IMG/VR virus record: IMGVR_UViG_3300042446_001218
Coordinates: 1 to 42,016 of that record
DNA length: 42,016 nucleotides
Source of the DNA: a virus
Strand: one strand, 5' to 3'
Position numbers and translations under genes: made by a program. The notes under the pieces were generated by a model, which was not told the DNA's origin, did no database searches, and saw only the letters and a program-made list of their open reading frames with translations. Positions 605-14,866 of the stretch are shown in pieces; within the stretch, counting starts at the first letter, position 1; each line of letters begins with the position of its first letter.

Positions 605-1909
605 TTACTTAGTCATCTCTTCGATAAAGAGTACATTAAACAATCTTGCAAAGTGTCCTGCTAATGCAAATGCATGAGAGGAGTTTGCATTCTCAGTCTT
701 GAGCCCTAATTGTTTCCACGCATTATTCCACGCCACATTATCGTTTTCGATAGCGCGGATTAGTGTTCTAATACTTGGATTATTCATAGACTCCTTACCA
801 TACTTGAGATTAAAGTCCTGAAGCAATTTATTATTTTTCTCAATAATTTCAAGATCACTGAGAGATTCAATTAGATCTCTAGATGAGAAATTTTGAAGCT
901 TAGGAATTTTATTACGAGCAGTAGCCACGATAATAAATGCTGCCATCAGCCCCATATGAAACTGATTGCGTAAAGCATTTATTACATTATTCTGTTGCCC
1001 AGCGTTCGTCTGATTCCCCCCAGTCGAGGGATAGTGACCGCTTTGAGTTACAGTTCCCACGCTTGGAGGTAACCCCCCTGTGCCTCCCATTCCCAGATTT
1101 CTTCCCACCCAGTATTGGGTGGGCTGGTACTTTTTTTCAGTTACACGAGCCTTCCACTCATCGGGGAATGGAAGTTCTACGTCAAAACCAATACCAGTAA
1201 TATACCGCTTCATTGCTGCGTCGATATATTCCTTTGGCATCTCTTTAAAGTGAGCATCGAGATGGGGAACCTCGATGAACGATAAGATAGAGATAGGAGC
1301 AAGATCCATCATTTTCTTTAGGATCTTAGCTTCTGAGGGAAATGGCTTACCAGGCTCAATAAGGCTCATATCTCCATTGAAGATAGCACTTACACGAGCA
1401 TGAATAGACATATCCTTCTGACCAAGATTACCCAGTGTGAAATGGATACCTTGCTGATTTTCCTCGTCATGCTTATCTGTGCCTGATTGAAACGCAGAAG
1501 TATTAACGTGGTTGTGAGTAGTACCATGGAACCCACCAATATCAATCCCGTGCTGCTCTTCGAGACTGCGTAGAAGTTCTTGGTTCTCTGGTGTCTGAAG
1601 ATCAATCTTAATTGTCATTCCGCTCACCGTCTGATGGAATGGCAAAGTAATGAATTGCTTATCTTTAGTAATGAAGTGACTAAGATGAGTCTCCTGCTTA
1701 AATGTCTTGTAAGACCAGCGATGAAAACCAACGACTTGAAGCCATTGTTCATATGGAAACTTAGGAATGTCACTTAGTAGTCCTGGAGCAGAAACTCTTT
1801 CAATTTGCAAACGTTGAGCGATCTCATTAGGATCAGCAATTTCGCTTACAGAGAAGAATGAGTTCTTTCTCATGGATACAATTTGTCCTGCGTCAGTAAT
1901 TGCAATCAT
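605..1909 (-). CDS. JAMM/JAB-family metalloprotease (PRTRC-A/deubiquitinase-like)
   Basis: This 434-residue protein carries a complete JAMM zinc motif: H132-x-H134 followed by seven residues, S142, two residues and D145 (HNHVNTSAFQSGTD). The following GIHFTLG and SIHARV strands resemble the segment after the motif in JAB proteins of PRTRC-type cassettes. JAB enzymes cleave isopeptide or peptide bonds after ubiquitin-like domains; here the likely role is to process the tandem Ubl or remove it from targets. The metalloprotease core occupies roughly residues 50-180. A Gly/Asn/Gln-rich linker (about 272-310) leads to a helical C-terminal domain I do not recognise. The catalytic Glu upstream cannot be assigned with certainty. 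The start overlaps the preceding gene's stop as ATGA, and a strong terminator follows. The motif is certain; substrate and role are inferred. Confidence 0.85.
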   Translation of the reverse strand: MIAITDAGQIVSMRKNSFFSVSEIADPNEIAQRLQIERVSAPGLLSDIPKFPYEQWLQVVGFHRWSYKTFKQETHLSHFITKDKQFITLPFHQTVSGMTIKIDLQTPENQELLRSLEEQHGIDIGGFHGTTHNHVNTSAFQSGTDKHDEENQQGIHFTLGNLGQKDMSIHARVSAIFNGDMSLIEPGKPFPSEAKILKKMMDLAPISILSFIEVPHLDAHFKEMPKEYIDAAMKRYITGIGFDVELPFPDEWKARVTEKKYQPTQYWVGRNLGMGGTGGLPPSVGTVTQSGHYPSTGGNQTNAGQQNNVINALRNQFHMGLMAAFIIVATARNKIPKLQNFSSRDLIESLSDLEIIEKNNKLLQDFNLKYGKESMNNPSIRTLIRAIENDNVAWNNAWKQLGLKTENANSSHAFALAGHFARLFNVLFIEEMTK

Positions 1910-2826
1910 GGAATTTCGATAATATAGATATCAGAGTTGTTTGTTGGTTCTTTAGCGAAATCGCTTTCTTTAGGTACATATGTAAGTTTATCTTCAACCT
2001 CACGGAAAGATTCCATGCGCGTTGCGAAATCTACGTCAGTAAGACCTGTATCGTAAATATCAATTGCTCTGTCCATAACACCAATACTGATCTTCTTATT
2101 ACTAAGTAGATCATCGACAATTACTTCAGGATTTGCGGATTTACCAGAAATAACTGTAGGAACTTCCGCTTCTGTAATATCCCATGATTCAATAGGAGCA
2201 CGGAGACAGTAGTTTACAGATTCAGTAAAACGCTCTTTGAGTGTAGTATCATTTACCGCATAGAAACCATGTACAGCAACTGCATATTGACCTGGAAGCA
2301 ATAATCCCTTAGTAACCATAGAACGACTACGCTCTACAGTTCCCATAAACGCACGGAAGAAGTGATGTCCCTGGGCTTGTACCAATGGCATAATGTTTAC
2401 AACAATGTAACCAGTCTTTCCATCAAGCTTGGCAACATTATTTTTGTAAACAGAAGTCATATGAGAGAACCCGAGGTATGGTGTTTCTCCATCAATATTG
2501 ATAACAAGCTTCCTAGATACATTCGAACATGGTAGTGTTACGGTAATGTTATTCTTAAGAGTTGCATCAAGATACTTCTTGTAAACGCCTACTATAAATT
2601 GCGGAATAGTAATACCGCCATTTGTAATCTTTTGAACTTCTCTTTCAATATAAATATCTTTAACACAGTCAGGTCTAGTTGAGCTAGAGAAGAAGTCATT
2701 ATCGTATAGACGATTAAGCGTACGTGTAGAAGTAGCTCCTACAAGTAGATTTTTAACTTCTTGAATCTTAGCCTCAAGAGGAGTACCTTCGATCAAATTT
2801 TGAGGTGGAGCGGTTTGTTCAGACAT
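1906..2826 (-). CDS. Unknown 306-residue protein of the ubiquitin-like operon
   Basis: I do not recognise this family. The protein is soluble, with a helical N-terminus (about residues 10-75), a beta-rich centre containing VTLPCSN and KLVINIDGETPYLGF, and an acidic C-terminal third. No signal peptide, membrane segment or nucleotide-binding loop is visible. It is locked between the E1-like gene (8-base overlap) and the JAMM protease gene (4-base overlap), so it is almost certainly co-translated with them and should act in the same pathway. It could be a target adaptor, an accessory conjugation factor or the substrate; the sequence does not decide. Its Cys residues, for example in TLPCSN and VNYCLRAP, are possible thioester sites but fit no known motif. 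Confidence 0.85.
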   Translation of the reverse strand: MSEQTAPPQNLIEGTPLEAKIQEVKNLLVGATSTRTLNRLYDNDFFSSSTRPDCVKDIYIEREVQKITNGGITIPQFIVGVYKKYLDATLKNNITVTLPCSNVSRKLVINIDGETPYLGFSHMTSVYKNNVAKLDGKTGYIVVNIMPLVQAQGHHFFRAFMGTVERSRSMVTKGLLLPGQYAVAVHGFYAVNDTTLKERFTESVNYCLRAPIESWDITEAEVPTVISGKSANPEVIVDDLLSNKKISIGVMDRAIDIYDTGLTDVDFATRMESFREVEDKLTYVPKESDFAKEPTNNSDIYIIEIP

Positions 2827-3505
2827 CTGTAGATTGTGAGTCTTGCTCTAGTTGATAAAATGTTTTTGTAAAAATTGTATTATTATTTCCAATTACTTTA
2901 GCCGTAACATGTTCCTCGTGCTCAAACGAAGTATTCATTAGACTATGTAGAATTGCCAATACAAAACCAGCGGCTACTGTATTTGCTAAAGCTGTTTGCA
3001 CATTTGCTTCAGCAGATTCACCAATCTCACCAGTACAAGCTCTCGATGGGTCCCGACCATCTGGCTTAATATTAGCGTAAACAAATGGATCCAGTAGACT
3101 GTCTTTGAATTTAGGCAGATATAAATATGCTTGAGGATCATACTCCTCATTCATACCCATGATCATAGGAACATAGAGCTGATCACTGAATTGCTTTGCA
3201 GTGATTCTAGCGTCATTGTTATCCACAGCTACAATGAGAAGATCACCTTCGCAGATGGATTTCTCGTTGAGATATGTTGGATCAAAGGTAACTTCATTCT
3301 TTGCCCAGGGTTCTACAGTTTCTGCAATAACCTCGGCTTTATTTTTACCAATGTTACCATTGGCGTAGTGCTGTCGTGTAATATTCTTCTCCTCATATTT
3401 GTCTCCGTCGAAAATATGAACAGGTGCGATGTTGGTTAGGGCGTGAACAAGGTGAGTCGTAAGACCCCCTGCGCCGATCAAAATAATGCGTTTCGGTTTC
3501 ATCAT
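2819..3505 (-). CDS. E1/ThiF/MoeB-like Ubl-activating enzyme
   Basis: This 228-residue Rossmann-fold protein has the E1-superfamily signature: nucleotide-binding loop GAGG (residues 11-14) after a beta strand, an acidic pair in FDGDKYEEKNITRQ (D33, D35, N41, R44, Q45), the G-K-x-K segment at 53-56, and VAVDNNDAR (D95, R100). Family members adenylate the C-terminus of ubiquitin-like or ThiS/MoaD proteins, usually passing it to a Cys. C157 in RACTGE is the candidate. The protein is compact, with no rhodanese or extra domains, like the ThiF of PRTRC cassettes. Two Met codons stand at the start; the first overlaps the stop of the upstream 35-residue ORF (ATGA). The neighbours supply a Ubl, an E2-like protein and a JAMM protease, which supports protein conjugation over cofactor sulfuration. 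Confidence 0.88.
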   Translation of the reverse strand: MMKPKRIILIGAGGLTTHLVHALTNIAPVHIFDGDKYEEKNITRQHYANGNIGKNKAEVIAETVEPWAKNEVTFDPTYLNEKSICEGDLLIVAVDNNDARITAKQFSDQLYVPMIMGMNEEYDPQAYLYLPKFKDSLLDPFVYANIKPDGRDPSRACTGEIGESAEANVQTALANTVAAGFVLAILHSLMNTSFEHEEHVTAKVIGNNNTIFTKTFYQLEQDSQSTDV

Positions 3506-3609
3506 TTTTTAATTTTGCGTGTTATGATATCCATCAATCTACCACTAATGGCATTTGAGGATGTACTATTCCTGACCAGGGCTTTAGCCTTTTCGATTAC
3601 TTGTTTCAT
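3502..3609 (-). CDS. Small basic 35-residue protein, coupled micro-gene
   Basis: A 36-codon ORF (MKQVIEKAKALVRNSTSSNA..., ending TRKIKK) fills the gap between the E2-like and E1-like genes. Its ATG overlaps the upstream TGA (ATGA at 3609-3606), and its own TGA overlaps the ATG of the E1-like gene (ATGA at 3505-3502). Two exact coupling overlaps are hard to explain by chance and argue that it is translated. The peptide is basic, has two amphipathic helical segments and lacks Cys. I do not recognise it; an accessory subunit that bridges E1 and E2 is only a guess. It may also serve mainly to couple translation. Confidence 0.7.
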   Translation of the reverse strand: MKQVIEKAKALVRNSTSSNAISGRLMDIITRKIKK

Positions 3610-4511
3610 TCGTTAAACTTTACGAGGTCGTCCCAGATTGGAGGCAGGGACATGTTTACTAAATTTGCTTCAAAATTTTGACCTGGCACTAATTTAAATA
3701 GTGGCATAGTTTTCTGATCAGCACCGCCAAGATACTCAGCATATACTTCATTCATATTCTCTTTCTCTAGGTCTGAATTAGAGGGTGCATGTACGAGGTC
3801 ATGGAACAAAGCACTAGGGCTCTGATTAAATGGATTTCTACGAAGAGCTACAGAAGAGGTATTTGAAAAACACCAGTCACCATGATCGTGCATGTTGTGA
3901 ACAGGAAGCTTGTATAGCTTTGGTATCTTGTCCAGAACAACACCGACAGTACTAAGTTTAACACTAATACCATCTTGATCGAAGTTAAGTTTGGTTCCAT
4001 TCTCATGCTTGAAACGTACAATATTTAGAAAGCCAGACCAACCGAAGTCAGAGGCCTTCAAGCAACATTCCACATTAGGCAGAACTCCAGTCTTTGGAAC
4101 AGCATCTCCGTATTTAATAATATCTCCTCGATTACCGGATCTCGTAAGTTCATCTACGTATGCTCTACCAGTCAATAATTTGAATTTAACTTGTCCGTCT
4201 CCAATTACTGGATACACGCACTCATTAAGGAAAAGATAATTAGTAAGGGTATAAACACTAACGATGTTTTGCGAAAAGCGCCACATCGAAGTCTGGTACT
4301 TAATATGTTCTGTAAGAATATCAGGACCTGGCATCTGACCACGCATTCTAGAAATAAATGTCGGCTCTCCAGAGAAAATATCATCAGGGGTGATAGTTTC
4401 TGGATTCTCCATAGTCAGGGTAAAGACTTTTGGACCATCAGGAGTTGGTAATATAATTGCGCCTCTAACTGGAATGCTATCGGCGGTTGGTGTGATTGGT
4501 GTTGTTGACAT
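3606..4511 (-). CDS. E2-like protein resembling PRTRC-B
   Basis: This 301-residue protein contains LPVHNMHDHGDWCFSN (residues about 202-217, Cys at 214). That resembles the catalytic stretch of the PRTRC-B family, where a Pro/Asn-containing strand leads through an acidic-Gly turn to a Cys. PRTRC-B proteins have been proposed to be E2-like conjugating proteins. A later HDLVHAPSN segment (about 227-235) is in the right place for the family's second conserved block. C149/C150 in NVECC are alternative reactive cysteines. It follows the Ubl gene after a hairpin terminator and is followed by the coupled micro-gene and E1. The assignment rests on motif resemblance plus context, so it is less sure than E1 or JAMM. 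No SD is present before the ATG. Confidence 0.6.
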   Translation of the reverse strand: MSTTPITPTADSIPVRGAIILPTPDGPKVFTLTMENPETITPDDIFSGEPTFISRMRGQMPGPDILTEHIKYQTSMWRFSQNIVSVYTLTNYLFLNECVYPVIGDGQVKFKLLTGRAYVDELTRSGNRGDIIKYGDAVPKTGVLPNVECCLKASDFGWSGFLNIVRFKHENGTKLNFDQDGISVKLSTVGVVLDKIPKLYKLPVHNMHDHGDWCFSNTSSVALRRNPFNQSPSALFHDLVHAPSNSDLEKENMNEVYAEYLGGADQKTMPLFKLVPGQNFEANLVNMSLPPIWDDLVKFNE

Positions 4512-4520
4512 AGAGGTAAT

Positions 4521-4557
4521 AAAATGAAAACCAGTGGGCGGATATACCGCCCACTGG
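4521..4557 (-). terminator. Intra-operon hairpin terminator between Ubl and E2-like genes
   Basis: On the minus strand CCAGTGGGCGG pairs perfectly with CCGCCCACTGG around a TATAT loop, and is followed by TTTTCATTTTATT. This is an 11-bp GC-rich stem with a U-rich tail. It lies after the Ubl stop and before the E2-like start, so partial termination here would leave the Ubl more abundant than its enzymes. Confidence 0.8.
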
Positions 4558-4584
4558 TGCGAATAATTAGTTAACTATATGCAG

Positions 4585-5022
4585 TTACGCAGCCTTTTGT
4601 GAAGTGGCTTGAGAGAACTCAATCACGTCACCAGCGCTAAGCGTAGCTTCGTTGGATTTGGAACCACCGTTGACTTTTACAACAGTGTTTGCACCCAAAC
4701 CAAGGGCAGCACGGTAGTCAGCATCTGCGAGAAGCTGGCTAGCGGTCTTTGCCGAATCAAGGGAGAAAGCTTGAGTCTGGCCATTAGCACGAACGCTGAT
4801 GGTGTAGACTGCAGCTTTTTGACTAGTTGCTTGGTAGAACTCTACCACGTCGTTATGCTGCAAGACATAGCTGTCTGCAGCCTCCGTACCGTTAACGCGA
4901 ACTTTGGTGTTAGCGTTGACGCCATATGCGGGGCCGTGGCTGGATTTGAAGCTAGCGACGGTTGGAGGAGTGGTGATAACTGCGGATTGAGTGGCACCAT
5001 TAGCTTTAACTTGAACGATCAT
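4585..5022 (-). CDS. Tandem ubiquitin-like (ThiS/MoaD/PRTRC-C-type beta-grasp) protein
   Basis: The 145-residue protein is an internal duplication: residues 1-71 and 72-145 each run from a strand (VQVKANG; ISVRANG) through a helix and a V-x-VNG turn to a final strand (NDVVEFYQATSQKAA; GDVIEFSQATSQKAA). That order and the V-x-VNG...GD-V-E-F pattern match the ThiS/MoaD beta-grasp. Both halves end in the identical ATSQKAA. From memory, PRTRC-C proteins end in a comparable F-x-R-A-x-G-x-K-G tail. The final AA is the C-terminus of the protein, so it needs no trimming; the inner copy would need cleavage after A71, a job for the neighbouring JAMM protease. The usual Gly-Gly is replaced by Ala-Ala. 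An E1-like and an E2-like gene follow. Fold and duplication are clear; the conjugation role is inferred. Confidence 0.8.
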   Translation of the reverse strand: MIVQVKANGATQSAVITTPPTVASFKSSHGPAYGVNANTKVRVNGTEAADSYVLQHNDVVEFYQATSQKAAVYTISVRANGQTQAFSLDSAKTASQLLADADYRAALGLGANTVVKVNGGSKSNEATLSAGDVIEFSQATSQKAA

Positions 5023-13645: not shown

Positions 13646-14866
13646 TTAATCAGGTAGTTTAATTATTTTACTTGCTGCTTGTTCGGGATTTAGGTATTCG
13701 TATTGTCCTGTTCTTCTATTTAAGAACATTTGATACAATCTACCATCAGATCCTATTTTGACGCCTTTTGTTAGGCGAGCGTCAACGCCGATTCGTTCAC
13801 TGTTACCAGCCCACCATGATACTCCTTCGTTTTCACGAACGAGTAGTGATGCGCCAGGAACAGCTGCACAGAAAACTTCTCCCTCAAAAGGAATTAATTC
13901 AGAGTTGAATACTGCATTAGGAAACAATACAGTACCTTGATCGGATTCTCTTTCAGATAAGGTATAAAATTCAGAGTCCAATAATTCATGAGCTAGGTAA
14001 ATTTTTACATTGTGACCAAATAAAGAATCATTATCAGTACTATAGATTCTATGATTCCTTGTTACGGTTAAGTAGTCATTCTGTTGTGTCCAAAACCTAA
14101 TCAGGTTTCCAGTGTACTTCTCTTTAGTGAGCCTATATGCTTTTGCAAAATGACGATAGAATCCAGATCCTAAACATAGGAACTCATGGTCTTCGTTAAT
14201 TTGATCCCATCGTACCCAACCTGCGTTAGTAAATACTTCTACATTACCTGGGAAGCACTCAGGCCCTTCTAGTCCAGATAAGAATCCAAACTGACCAGGA
14301 GTAACACTCTGCATTGATTCCGTAATAGAATCAGAACTTTGAATACCACCTTCTCCTAGTTGGGTTACACGTCGAGCATTTTCCAAGAGGTGAATAGGAT
14401 TAATCTCTTCCAATGGAGAGCTTAATGGATTACCAATAAGTTGCTTCTCTCCATATGAGTCAAAATAAAACGGAGTAAGGAATGATAGATTCTTTCTATA
14501 TGATGCAGCAGCAAGTAACTTCTTTCTCACTCCCGTACCATCGTTACGAATTCTTTCGGAGAGTTGTTTATTAACTGGAAACATCTTCTTAAACATTAGG
14601 TCATCCCTATTGTCAGTTTCTTCCAGTCCTTTGTTTACGTTAAGAAGTTTTTGCGATGAACTAAGCAAGCCGCTAACACCAAAGGAAACATAAGGTTCTT
14701 CAGAGGCATCGTAATCATAGGATACGGACTTACTAAAATCATCAGAGAGTTGAGTCTTATCTCTTTTATCCTCTAATTCATCATCAGCCTCTTCTACAGC
14801 TGAAGACTTTTTTAATTCCTCAAATTGTACAAATTTTAAAATTCTGTTAAAAAGATCTTCACTCAT
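13646..14866 (-). CDS. RNA polymerase beta-subunit middle fragment, interrupted by a mini-intein
   Basis: The extein parts align with the core of bacterial RpoB. QKLLNVNKGLEETDNRDDL resembles the KLLxLNxGxGxxDxxDxL segment. NPLSSPLEEINPIHLLENARR then LGEGG corresponds to the NPLxExxHKRRxSxLGPGG fork region. VTPGQFGFLSGLEGPE joined to SERIGVDARL corresponds to [22 protein letters not shown]. A 152-residue intein (C204-N355) splits that last motif. Removal leaves a 254-residue fragment ending shortly after it (IIKLPD). The C-terminal half of beta, with the nucleotide-binding residues, is absent from the window. The gene overlaps the beta N-terminal gene by eight bases. Split beta subunits are known for phiKZ-like and AR9-like phages. 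The first 60 residues are acidic and without RpoB similarity. Confidence 0.82.
   Translation of the reverse strand: MSEDLFNRILKFVQFEELKKSSAVEEADDELEDKRDKTQLSDDFSKSVSYDYDASEEPYVSFGVSGLLSSSQKLLNVNKGLEETDNRDDLMFKKMFPVNKQLSERIRNDGTGVRKKLLAAASYRKNLSFLTPFYFDSYGEKQLIGNPLSSPLEEINPIHLLENARRVTQLGEGGIQSSDSITESMQSVTPGQFGFLSGLEGPECFPGNVEVFTNAGWVRWDQINEDHEFLCLGSGFYRHFAKAYRLTKEKYTGNLIRFWTQQNDYLTVTRNHRIYSTDNDSLFGHNVKIYLAHELLDSEFYTLSERESDQGTVLFPNAVFNSELIPFEGEVFCAAVPGASLLVRENEGVSWWAGNSERIGVDARLTKGVKIGSDGRLYQMFLNRRTGQYEYLNPEQAASKIIKLPD
13802..14257 (-). mobile_element. Mini-intein in the RNA polymerase beta fragment
   Basis: Protein residues 204-355 of the host ORF. Block A begins with catalytic C204 (CFPGNVEVFTNAGWVRWDQI), block B has TVTRNHRIYS with the T-x-x-H pattern (H272), and block F is FEGEVFCAAVPGASLLVREN. 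The C-terminal end is WWAGN355 followed by Ser356 as the first extein residue. The usual penultimate His is Gly. With only about 55 residues between blocks B and F there is no homing endonuclease, so this is a splicing-only intein. The insertion point is the most conserved motif of the subunit. Confidence 0.87.

Follow-up and report, generated by a model that had tools for sequence, protein, structure and literature searches.

A tandem ubiquitin-like gene with alanine-ended tails in a tailed phage contig, probably a polyubiquitin-type precursor

Introduction

Polyubiquitin genes are regarded as a hallmark of eukaryotes. Bacterial genes for several ubiquitin-like (Ubl) domains have been known since 2006 (PMC1779556). 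Can a virus of bacteria, then, carry such a gene together with enzymes able to process and attach its product, and could the modifier do without a C-terminal glycine? The question is raised by a short gene in the window, as we call the whole stretch of 42,016 bases analysed here, whose product consists of two Ubl repeats ending in the same seven residues. The window is a viral contig, probably a fragment, and comes from a tailed phage: it carries genes for UvsX, DNA polymerase, a DnaB-type helicase and an SbcC-like protein, as well as a portal-like gene with a match to the portal annotated in Salmonella phage Arash. Elsewhere in the window, 13646-14866 (minus strand) encodes a protein with an intein-like stretch starting CFPGNVEVFTNAGWVRW; residues 171-279 of this protein match part of the 866-position PHROGs thymidylate synthase family, possibly via a shared intein.

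Two repeats with one tail

The tandem Ubl gene (4585..5022, minus strand), identified as an open reading frame, by its ThiS match and by a phage profile, encodes 145 residues, with repeat 1 at 4810-5022 and repeat 2 at 4588-4809, both on the minus strand. ATSQKAA occupies residues 65-71 and 139-145. The inner tail (4810..4830, minus), followed by V72, precedes repeat 2 and is the presumed processing site in view of homologous junctions in other phages, while the C-terminal tail (4588..4608, minus) has the stop codon directly after it, so that the final copy stops exactly at the two alanines, as the first-pass annotation had stated. That annotation had also described halves with identical ends and different interiors and had proposed that the tail is under selection, and the alignment agrees with both points. 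Over 71 aligned columns the repeats are 41% identical, with 7/7 identities in the tail and 22/64 (34%) in the interior. Given 29 identities in 71 columns, seven identical tail columns have P = 0.0012, and a longest run of at least eight identities between the repeats arises in about 1.7% of permutations. The codons of the two tails differ at 6 of 21 bases, all synonymously, and the serine codon (AGT versus TCA) differs at all three positions. Because of these six differences, the serine codon included, the identical tails are no recent copy; their codons suggest either purifying selection or an old copy that has since drifted at synonymous sites. The window holds a tandem Ubl with a conserved tail.

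Predicted fold of the repeats

The window Ubl matches Pfam ThiS in two stretches (28.5 bits, cut-off 22.5) and is found by a profile of 10 related phage Ubls built without it (1.3e-6, next ORF 0.85). Pfam and NCBIfam scans returned neither a Prok_Ub nor a PRTRC_C match for it, and Multi_ubiq did not match up to an E of 1. A model of repeat 2 built with 14 related sequences has a mean pLDDT of 85.3 and the order strand-strand-helix-strand-strand, with pLDDT below 50 for tail residues 71-74, as expected of a flexible tail. The best Foldseek matches of this model are SUMO, Mth1743, MoaD and ThiS (E about 0.007-0.02), and the top of the VIA-align list comprises MoaD, Mth1743, FUBI, ISG15, SUMO and ubiquitin, with Z up to 7.9. 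Such middling Z values are weak taken alone, but almost all the structures matched have a ubiquitin-like fold, and Pfam ThiS provides separate evidence. Repeat 2 is thus predicted to be a beta-grasp domain of the ubiquitin/MoaD type with a floppy tail. The fold was modelled for repeat 2, and repeat 1 is linked to it by the 41% alignment and by the ThiS match, which is above cut-off for the protein as a whole; a single-sequence model of all 145 residues was poor (pLDDT 49.8) and was left unused. The beta-grasp fold, whose absence had been named as grounds for abandoning the first-pass reading, is hence predicted from the ThiS match, the model and the structure matches together.

A conjugation module downstream

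Four further genes follow downstream of the Ubl gene on the same strand; in order, they encode an E2-like protein of 301 aa, the ThiF-type E1, a protein of 306 aa and the JAMM protein. So that the searches would not be circular, the profiles were built solely from proteins of related phages, excluding the window, and were run against the 186 ORFs of the window. The E1, E2-like, JAMM and Ubl profiles each pick a single ORF, the next one never scoring better than 0.5.

The E1-like adenylyltransferase of ThiF fold (2819..3505, minus; 228 aa) matches Pfam ThiF PF00899 at 2e-13 and the profile made without the window at 1.9e-32, and its candidate catalytic Cys157 is invariant in alignments of 7 and 8 sequences. 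PADLOC assigned only generic E1-E2 models to it. The JAMM metallopeptidase-like protein (605..1909, minus; 434 aa) is found by its profile at 3.6e-19 and carries an HNH..S..D metal motif whose H132, H134, S142 and D145 are invariant in alignments of 5 and 8. The 301-aa protein (3606..4511, minus) is a candidate E2-like protein of divergent PRTRC B/Prok-E2_D type, on the strength of one distant match to a deep profile of 69 phage E2-like proteins that excludes the window (9.3e-5, next ORF 0.6). Its candidate catalytic Cys214 and an N-x-D-L motif are invariant among the window and four phage relatives, and E2-like relatives at two other loci (L041 and L086) match Prok-E2_D above cut-off. The window protein itself has no Prok-E2_D match in Pfam, and hhalign found no significant similarity between its single sequence and either of two E2-like alignments. 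The 306-aa protein inside the module (1906..2826, minus) has no assigned function, gave no family match and had no relative in the viral-contig scans; it was also tried as the E2-like member and rejected, as it does not match E2-like alignment A9.

Judged by these profiles, it is well supported that the window holds a Ubl conjugation module. The best NCBIfam matches of its E1 and JAMM are PRTRC_ThiF (1e-11, 44.6 bits, cut-off 144.75) and PRTRC_A (2.3e-4 over residues 132-174, 20.8 bits, cut-off 101.8). Since both lie below the curated cut-offs, the module appears to be a divergent relative of the bacterial '6d'/PRTRC-type Ubl modules and not a filed member of them.

Related modules carry one to six Ubl units

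JAMM alignments brought up 97 matching viral-contig loci, of which 80 were listed and complemented by 16 further loci, many of them near-duplicates. These 96 listed loci contain 71 distinct JAMM proteins. An E1-like gene is present in the same stretch in 96/96 and a Ubl gene in 83/96 of them; counted by distinct JAMM proteins among the matches listed, 71/71 have an E1-like gene and 60/71 a recognised Ubl. Salmonella phage Arash, Vibrio phage D181, Bacillus phage KLEB27-3 and Acinetobacter phage ME3 all have Ubl, E2-like, JAMM and E1 genes, and the portals of Arash and D181 are distant relatives of the window portal. The ORF sets leave out L001, a copy of the window, and L011, with MoeB in bacterial-looking DNA. 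The latter record (CAKLQH020000004.1), named Acinetobacter phage MD-2021a, has ordinary bacterial moeB, kdpA and folB and is probably host DNA.

The matches listed, the named phages and the window together gave 60 distinct Ubl proteins. At least 12 of these, encoded beside JAMM/E1 genes, are in-frame fusions of two to six Ubls; as multimers were recognised by eye and then split by tail pattern, 12/60 is a minimum. Two units are found in the window, L015, L016, L018, L024, L030, L050 and L058, three in D181, four in KLEB27-3 and L086, and six in L055. Each repeat ends in the family tail, usually ...GTKG, and the tail is identical (7/7) in all pairs of repeats except two involving repeat 3 of D181 (5/7), with interiors from 34% to 100% identical. 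The divergent multimers (window, D181, L018, L086) keep the tail with interiors 34-68% identical. The four KLEB27-3 units are 88-100% identical inside and are followed by a final MPRIVVK. Prok_Ub matches above cut-off comprise four stretches in the KLEB27-3 multimer and six in that of L055; among the ThiS-like Ubls found, that of the window is the only tandem. The polyprotein reading of the first-pass annotation thus gains from a family in which copy number varies and a tail closes each repeat. Its expectation that single-domain relatives lacking the tail would speak against the reading is borne out formally at most: single-domain relatives do exist, but nearly all of them keep the equivalent ..KG tail.

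The reach of the searches differs. Viral-contig scans with the single window E1, Ubl, E2-like and 306-aa proteins gave no close relative, and tblastn of the window Ubl and JAMM against phages gave nothing. The portal scans of viral contigs returned one syntenic relative, L005, whose contig stops just before the module, so that the absence of a Ubl there is meaningless. With tblastn, the ME3 Ubl found only ME3 and one weak hit in phages, and a KLEB27-3 unit found only KLEB27-3 among phages, plus three weak plasmid hits. In 47 loci from bacterial genome contigs a Ubl was recognised in 10, mostly single, with one clear tandem (L142); this search was tuned to phage Ubls and does not show that bacteria are without multimers.

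Several loci depart from the common pattern. L041 (4357-4807) and L096 (3013-4969) each have two Ubl genes side by side and not fused, whose tails are near-identical; this may be an intermediate on the way to fusion or another arrangement in its place. In L063, L087, L088 and L091, JAMM/E1-linked ThiS-like Ubls end in AGA, AGAIILCQ, AGSK and AGRANR and are a second lineage in these phages, with another tail type. In the crAss-like phage cr85_1 (L004 2948-6663) a Ubl-looking N-terminal stretch, an unknown protein, JAMM and ThiF stand in a row, which may be a distant version of the module in crAss-like phages. The record of Arash overlooks the single Ubl of this phage (L006 107-307), which ends RRTGTKG, and has gp251 in another frame at that place. 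The E1-like and E2-like genes beside the Ubl are labelled 'structural protein'; if these labels stem from virion proteomics, both proteins would be in the particle. The JAMM gene of ME3 (L010 2736-5846) is broken inside the metal motif, its first part ending ..VVVMDIH. The rest of the gene apparently starts some 2 kb further along, beyond a tRNA and other ORFs, as in an intron insertion.

Is the tandem protein cleaved at all? It might stay intact as a two-domain modifier like ISG15 or BilA, with the C-terminal tail alone activated and the inner tail serving as a linker. The window Ubl has exactly two divergent domains, ISG15 is among its best structural matches, and BilA is described as a two-domain Ubl in an E1/E2/JAB operon (PMC11354881). 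However, a linker need not keep all seven tail residues through synonymous change only, and in the relatives, whose unit number is 1, 2, 3, 4 or 6, every inner junction has the whole tail. We consider an uncleaved modifier unlikely and favour a precursor, because copy number varies so freely in the relatives. Polyprotein processing of the window Ubl is likely on these comparisons.

Nor is conjugation the only use to which ThiS-like units are suited, as they could be sulfur carriers, thiocarboxylated by the E1-like protein and donating sulfur to, for example, a modified base or tRNA. ThiS is the best curated match of the window Ubl, MoaD tops the structural list and the E1 is of ThiF type, but the module also includes an E2-like protein with a conserved cysteine, the family tails read ..GTKG and similar and not Gly-Gly, and none of the ten proteins scanned around the module was recognised as a sulfur-transfer gene. 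A sulfur carrier is, in our opinion, quite improbable.

The alanine end and the position of the cut

The tails of the 60 distinct Ubls comprise 53 with KG (52 by script and L051, missed by the pattern, by eye), five with a near-end glycine but no KG, and 2 with KAA. The window Ubl lacks a C-terminal glycine, and its KAA end recurs only in Acinetobacter phage ME3 (...GNKAA), a rarity (2/60) that agrees with the early remark that Ala-Ala is unusual. In a 14-row alignment of window-like Ubls the lysine is invariant and is followed by glycine in 12 rows and by alanine in the two window repeats. From this Lys-[Gly/Ala] column, the first alanine (A70/A144) is the homologue of the terminal glycine, and the second may then lie past the cut, which might fall at QKA/A instead of after A71, where the first-pass annotation had placed it. 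Among 54 Ubls scored by script, 31 end exactly at the tail and 23 continue for one to more than 20 residues, so trimming, as well as freeing of inner copies, would be needed if the tail is to be activated. Where the KG tail is followed by a residue and not by a stop, alanine is the commonest (15/45), and the Ubls of L074 and L080 end DTKGA; on these grounds QKA/A appears as likely as QKAA/. The obvious candidate for the protease is the JAMM protein, since its gene and the Ubl gene share a strand in 88/88 loci listed.

Alternatively, the Ala-Ala end might serve mainly as an ssrA-like degron, through which host ClpXP would destroy free Ubl while conjugated Ubl is protected, keeping the free pool low. 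C-terminal Ala-Ala is recognised by ClpX, and both Ala-ended Ubls, those of the window and ME3, have two alanines, not one. Against this, there are just two cases, the Lys-[Gly/Ala] column already accounts for one alanine as the glycine equivalent, and alanine is frequent after the tail of Gly-type precursors, as the residues after KG show. We leave the degron a slim chance only.

Can alanine replace glycine in a precursor that is cut and conjugated? The closest published experiment comes from CBASS, where the JAB protein Cap3 cuts a tandem cGAS fusion after its first unit. In the same work, 1,583 aligned CBASS cGAS proteins end in Gly or Ala, the Ala-ended cGAS of E. cloacae is conjugated, and a Gly-to-Ala change in E. 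coli cGAS reduced conjugation but did not abolish it (PMC10097602). By this analogy, alanine is a usable conjugation end.

Comparison with known systems

We take operon type 6d to be that of the PRTRC-type systems. In Iyer, Burroughs and Aravind (2006), 6d operons encode a small Ubl, an E2-like protein with a cysteine, a JAB protein and an E1 (PMC1779556). The window is like them in its separate E1-like, JAB and E2-like genes, the last with a cysteine and downstream conserved residues, and it also resembles PRTRC systems in the below-cut-off matches of its E1 and JAMM. In contrast, the 6d Ubl of that paper is small, standalone and has a highly conserved C-terminal glycine (PMC1779556), while the window has two fused Ubls with an alanine end, ThiS-like and not Prok_Ub-like. 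The 6e operons, as described there, encode between one and three Ubls in tandem, each 70-75 aa long, that were likened to eukaryotic polyubiquitin, and here the window is alike in its tandem Ubls; unlike the window, however, they usually have the JAB fused to the E1 and an E2-like domain without the cysteine (PMC1779556), and the window Ubl lacks the Multi_ubiq match. In short, the window pairs enzymes of the 6d kind with a tandem Ubl like those of 6e; it does so in a phage, and with the terminal residue changed.

With Bil (BilABCD) and ISG15 the window shares a two-domain Ubl with E1, E2 and JAB partners. BilA is described as a two-domain ISG15 homologue with a reactive C-terminal glycine, whereas the window repeats the full tail after each domain (PMC11354881). 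Closer in layout is eukaryotic polyubiquitin, with head-to-tail in-frame units and the same tail at every junction, an arrangement that KLEB27-3 has with its near-identical units and short final extension; the window differs in its 34% identical interiors and in the proposed protease, a JAMM. The window repeats might have different jobs, as they diverge much more than the units of true polyubiquitin do. The CBASS cGAS with Cap2/Cap3 offers a naturally conjugated C-terminal alanine and a cleaved artificial tandem (PMC10097602), but that cGAS is neither a beta-grasp protein nor a natural polyprotein. No publication about polyubiquitin-like genes of phages turned up in a literature search that did not extend to preprints or to most subscription journals, so novelty in print is not established. 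CBASS conjugation systems (PMC10097602) and Bil (PMC11354881) do confront phages, yet a role as a linear scaffold or a decoy that acts without covalent attachment, jamming for instance host Ubl-based defence beside vestigial enzymes, is very improbable given that the JAMM metal ligands and the candidate E1 and E2 cysteines are all intact.

Expression and proposed mechanism

Between the Ubl and E2-like genes lies a terminator-like hairpin with a 12-bp stem and a T-rich tail (4530..4558, minus), and the stretch 4515-4587 has a z of -6.75. Similar hairpins occur within 90 nt of 32/60 Ubl genes, against a shuffled expectation of 3.2, and after 24/65 E1, 23/65 JAMM, 3/44 E2-like and 81/630 other same-strand genes. 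These counts exclude L002-L005 and L007, and because the loci are related and not independent, the P values are optimistic and overstate the strength of the signal. The terminator is less peculiar to the Ubl gene than the shuffled expectation implies, as the contrast shrinks when real genes are the comparison. The hairpin suggests that the Ubl modifier has a transcript to itself and outnumbers the enzymes that act on it; such an excess also fits a multi-copy precursor.

How would the module work then? Two Ubl units would be translated head to tail as a polyubiquitin-like precursor, and the adjoining JAMM would cut behind the tail of the first, as well as trim the end where relatives have extra residues. 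The E1-like protein would adenylate the freed tail and hold the Ubl as a thioester, the E2-like protein would hand it to amines of target proteins, and the JAMM could remove conjugated Ubl again. In the window phage the terminal glycine of the family would have become alanine (QKA, plus one more alanine), which its E1, E2 and JAMM must accept. The mature end would be Ala144 (or Ala145). Cleavage, conjugation, reversibility and the existence of any target are inferred; if there are targets, we would guess that they are most probably proteins of the phage virion or of the host. Taken as a whole, we regard a conjugated, polyubiquitin-like precursor processed by JAMM as fairly probable.

Implications

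If this account is true, bacterial viruses would both face and use ubiquitin-like tagging, with a full set of writer and eraser genes. More tentatively, and with considerable doubt on our side, phages of several unrelated groups may run complete Ubl cycles from polyubiquitin-type precursor genes of one to six copies, transcribed apart and ahead of the E2, JAMM and E1 genes; in the window phage and ME3, glycine would have been exchanged for Ala-Ala with matching enzymes, so that the modifier would be poorly removed by the Gly-specific JAMM proteins of hosts or rival phages. The Ala-ended modifier could be long-lived, since conjugates of Ala-ended ubiquitin (Ub G76A) are more resistant to isopeptidases (PMC5298413). 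Such modules occur in named phages (Arash, KLEB27-3, ME3 and D181), which renders this reading testable, and the alanine end provides a clean natural experiment on the demands that a tail must satisfy for E1, E2 and JAMM.
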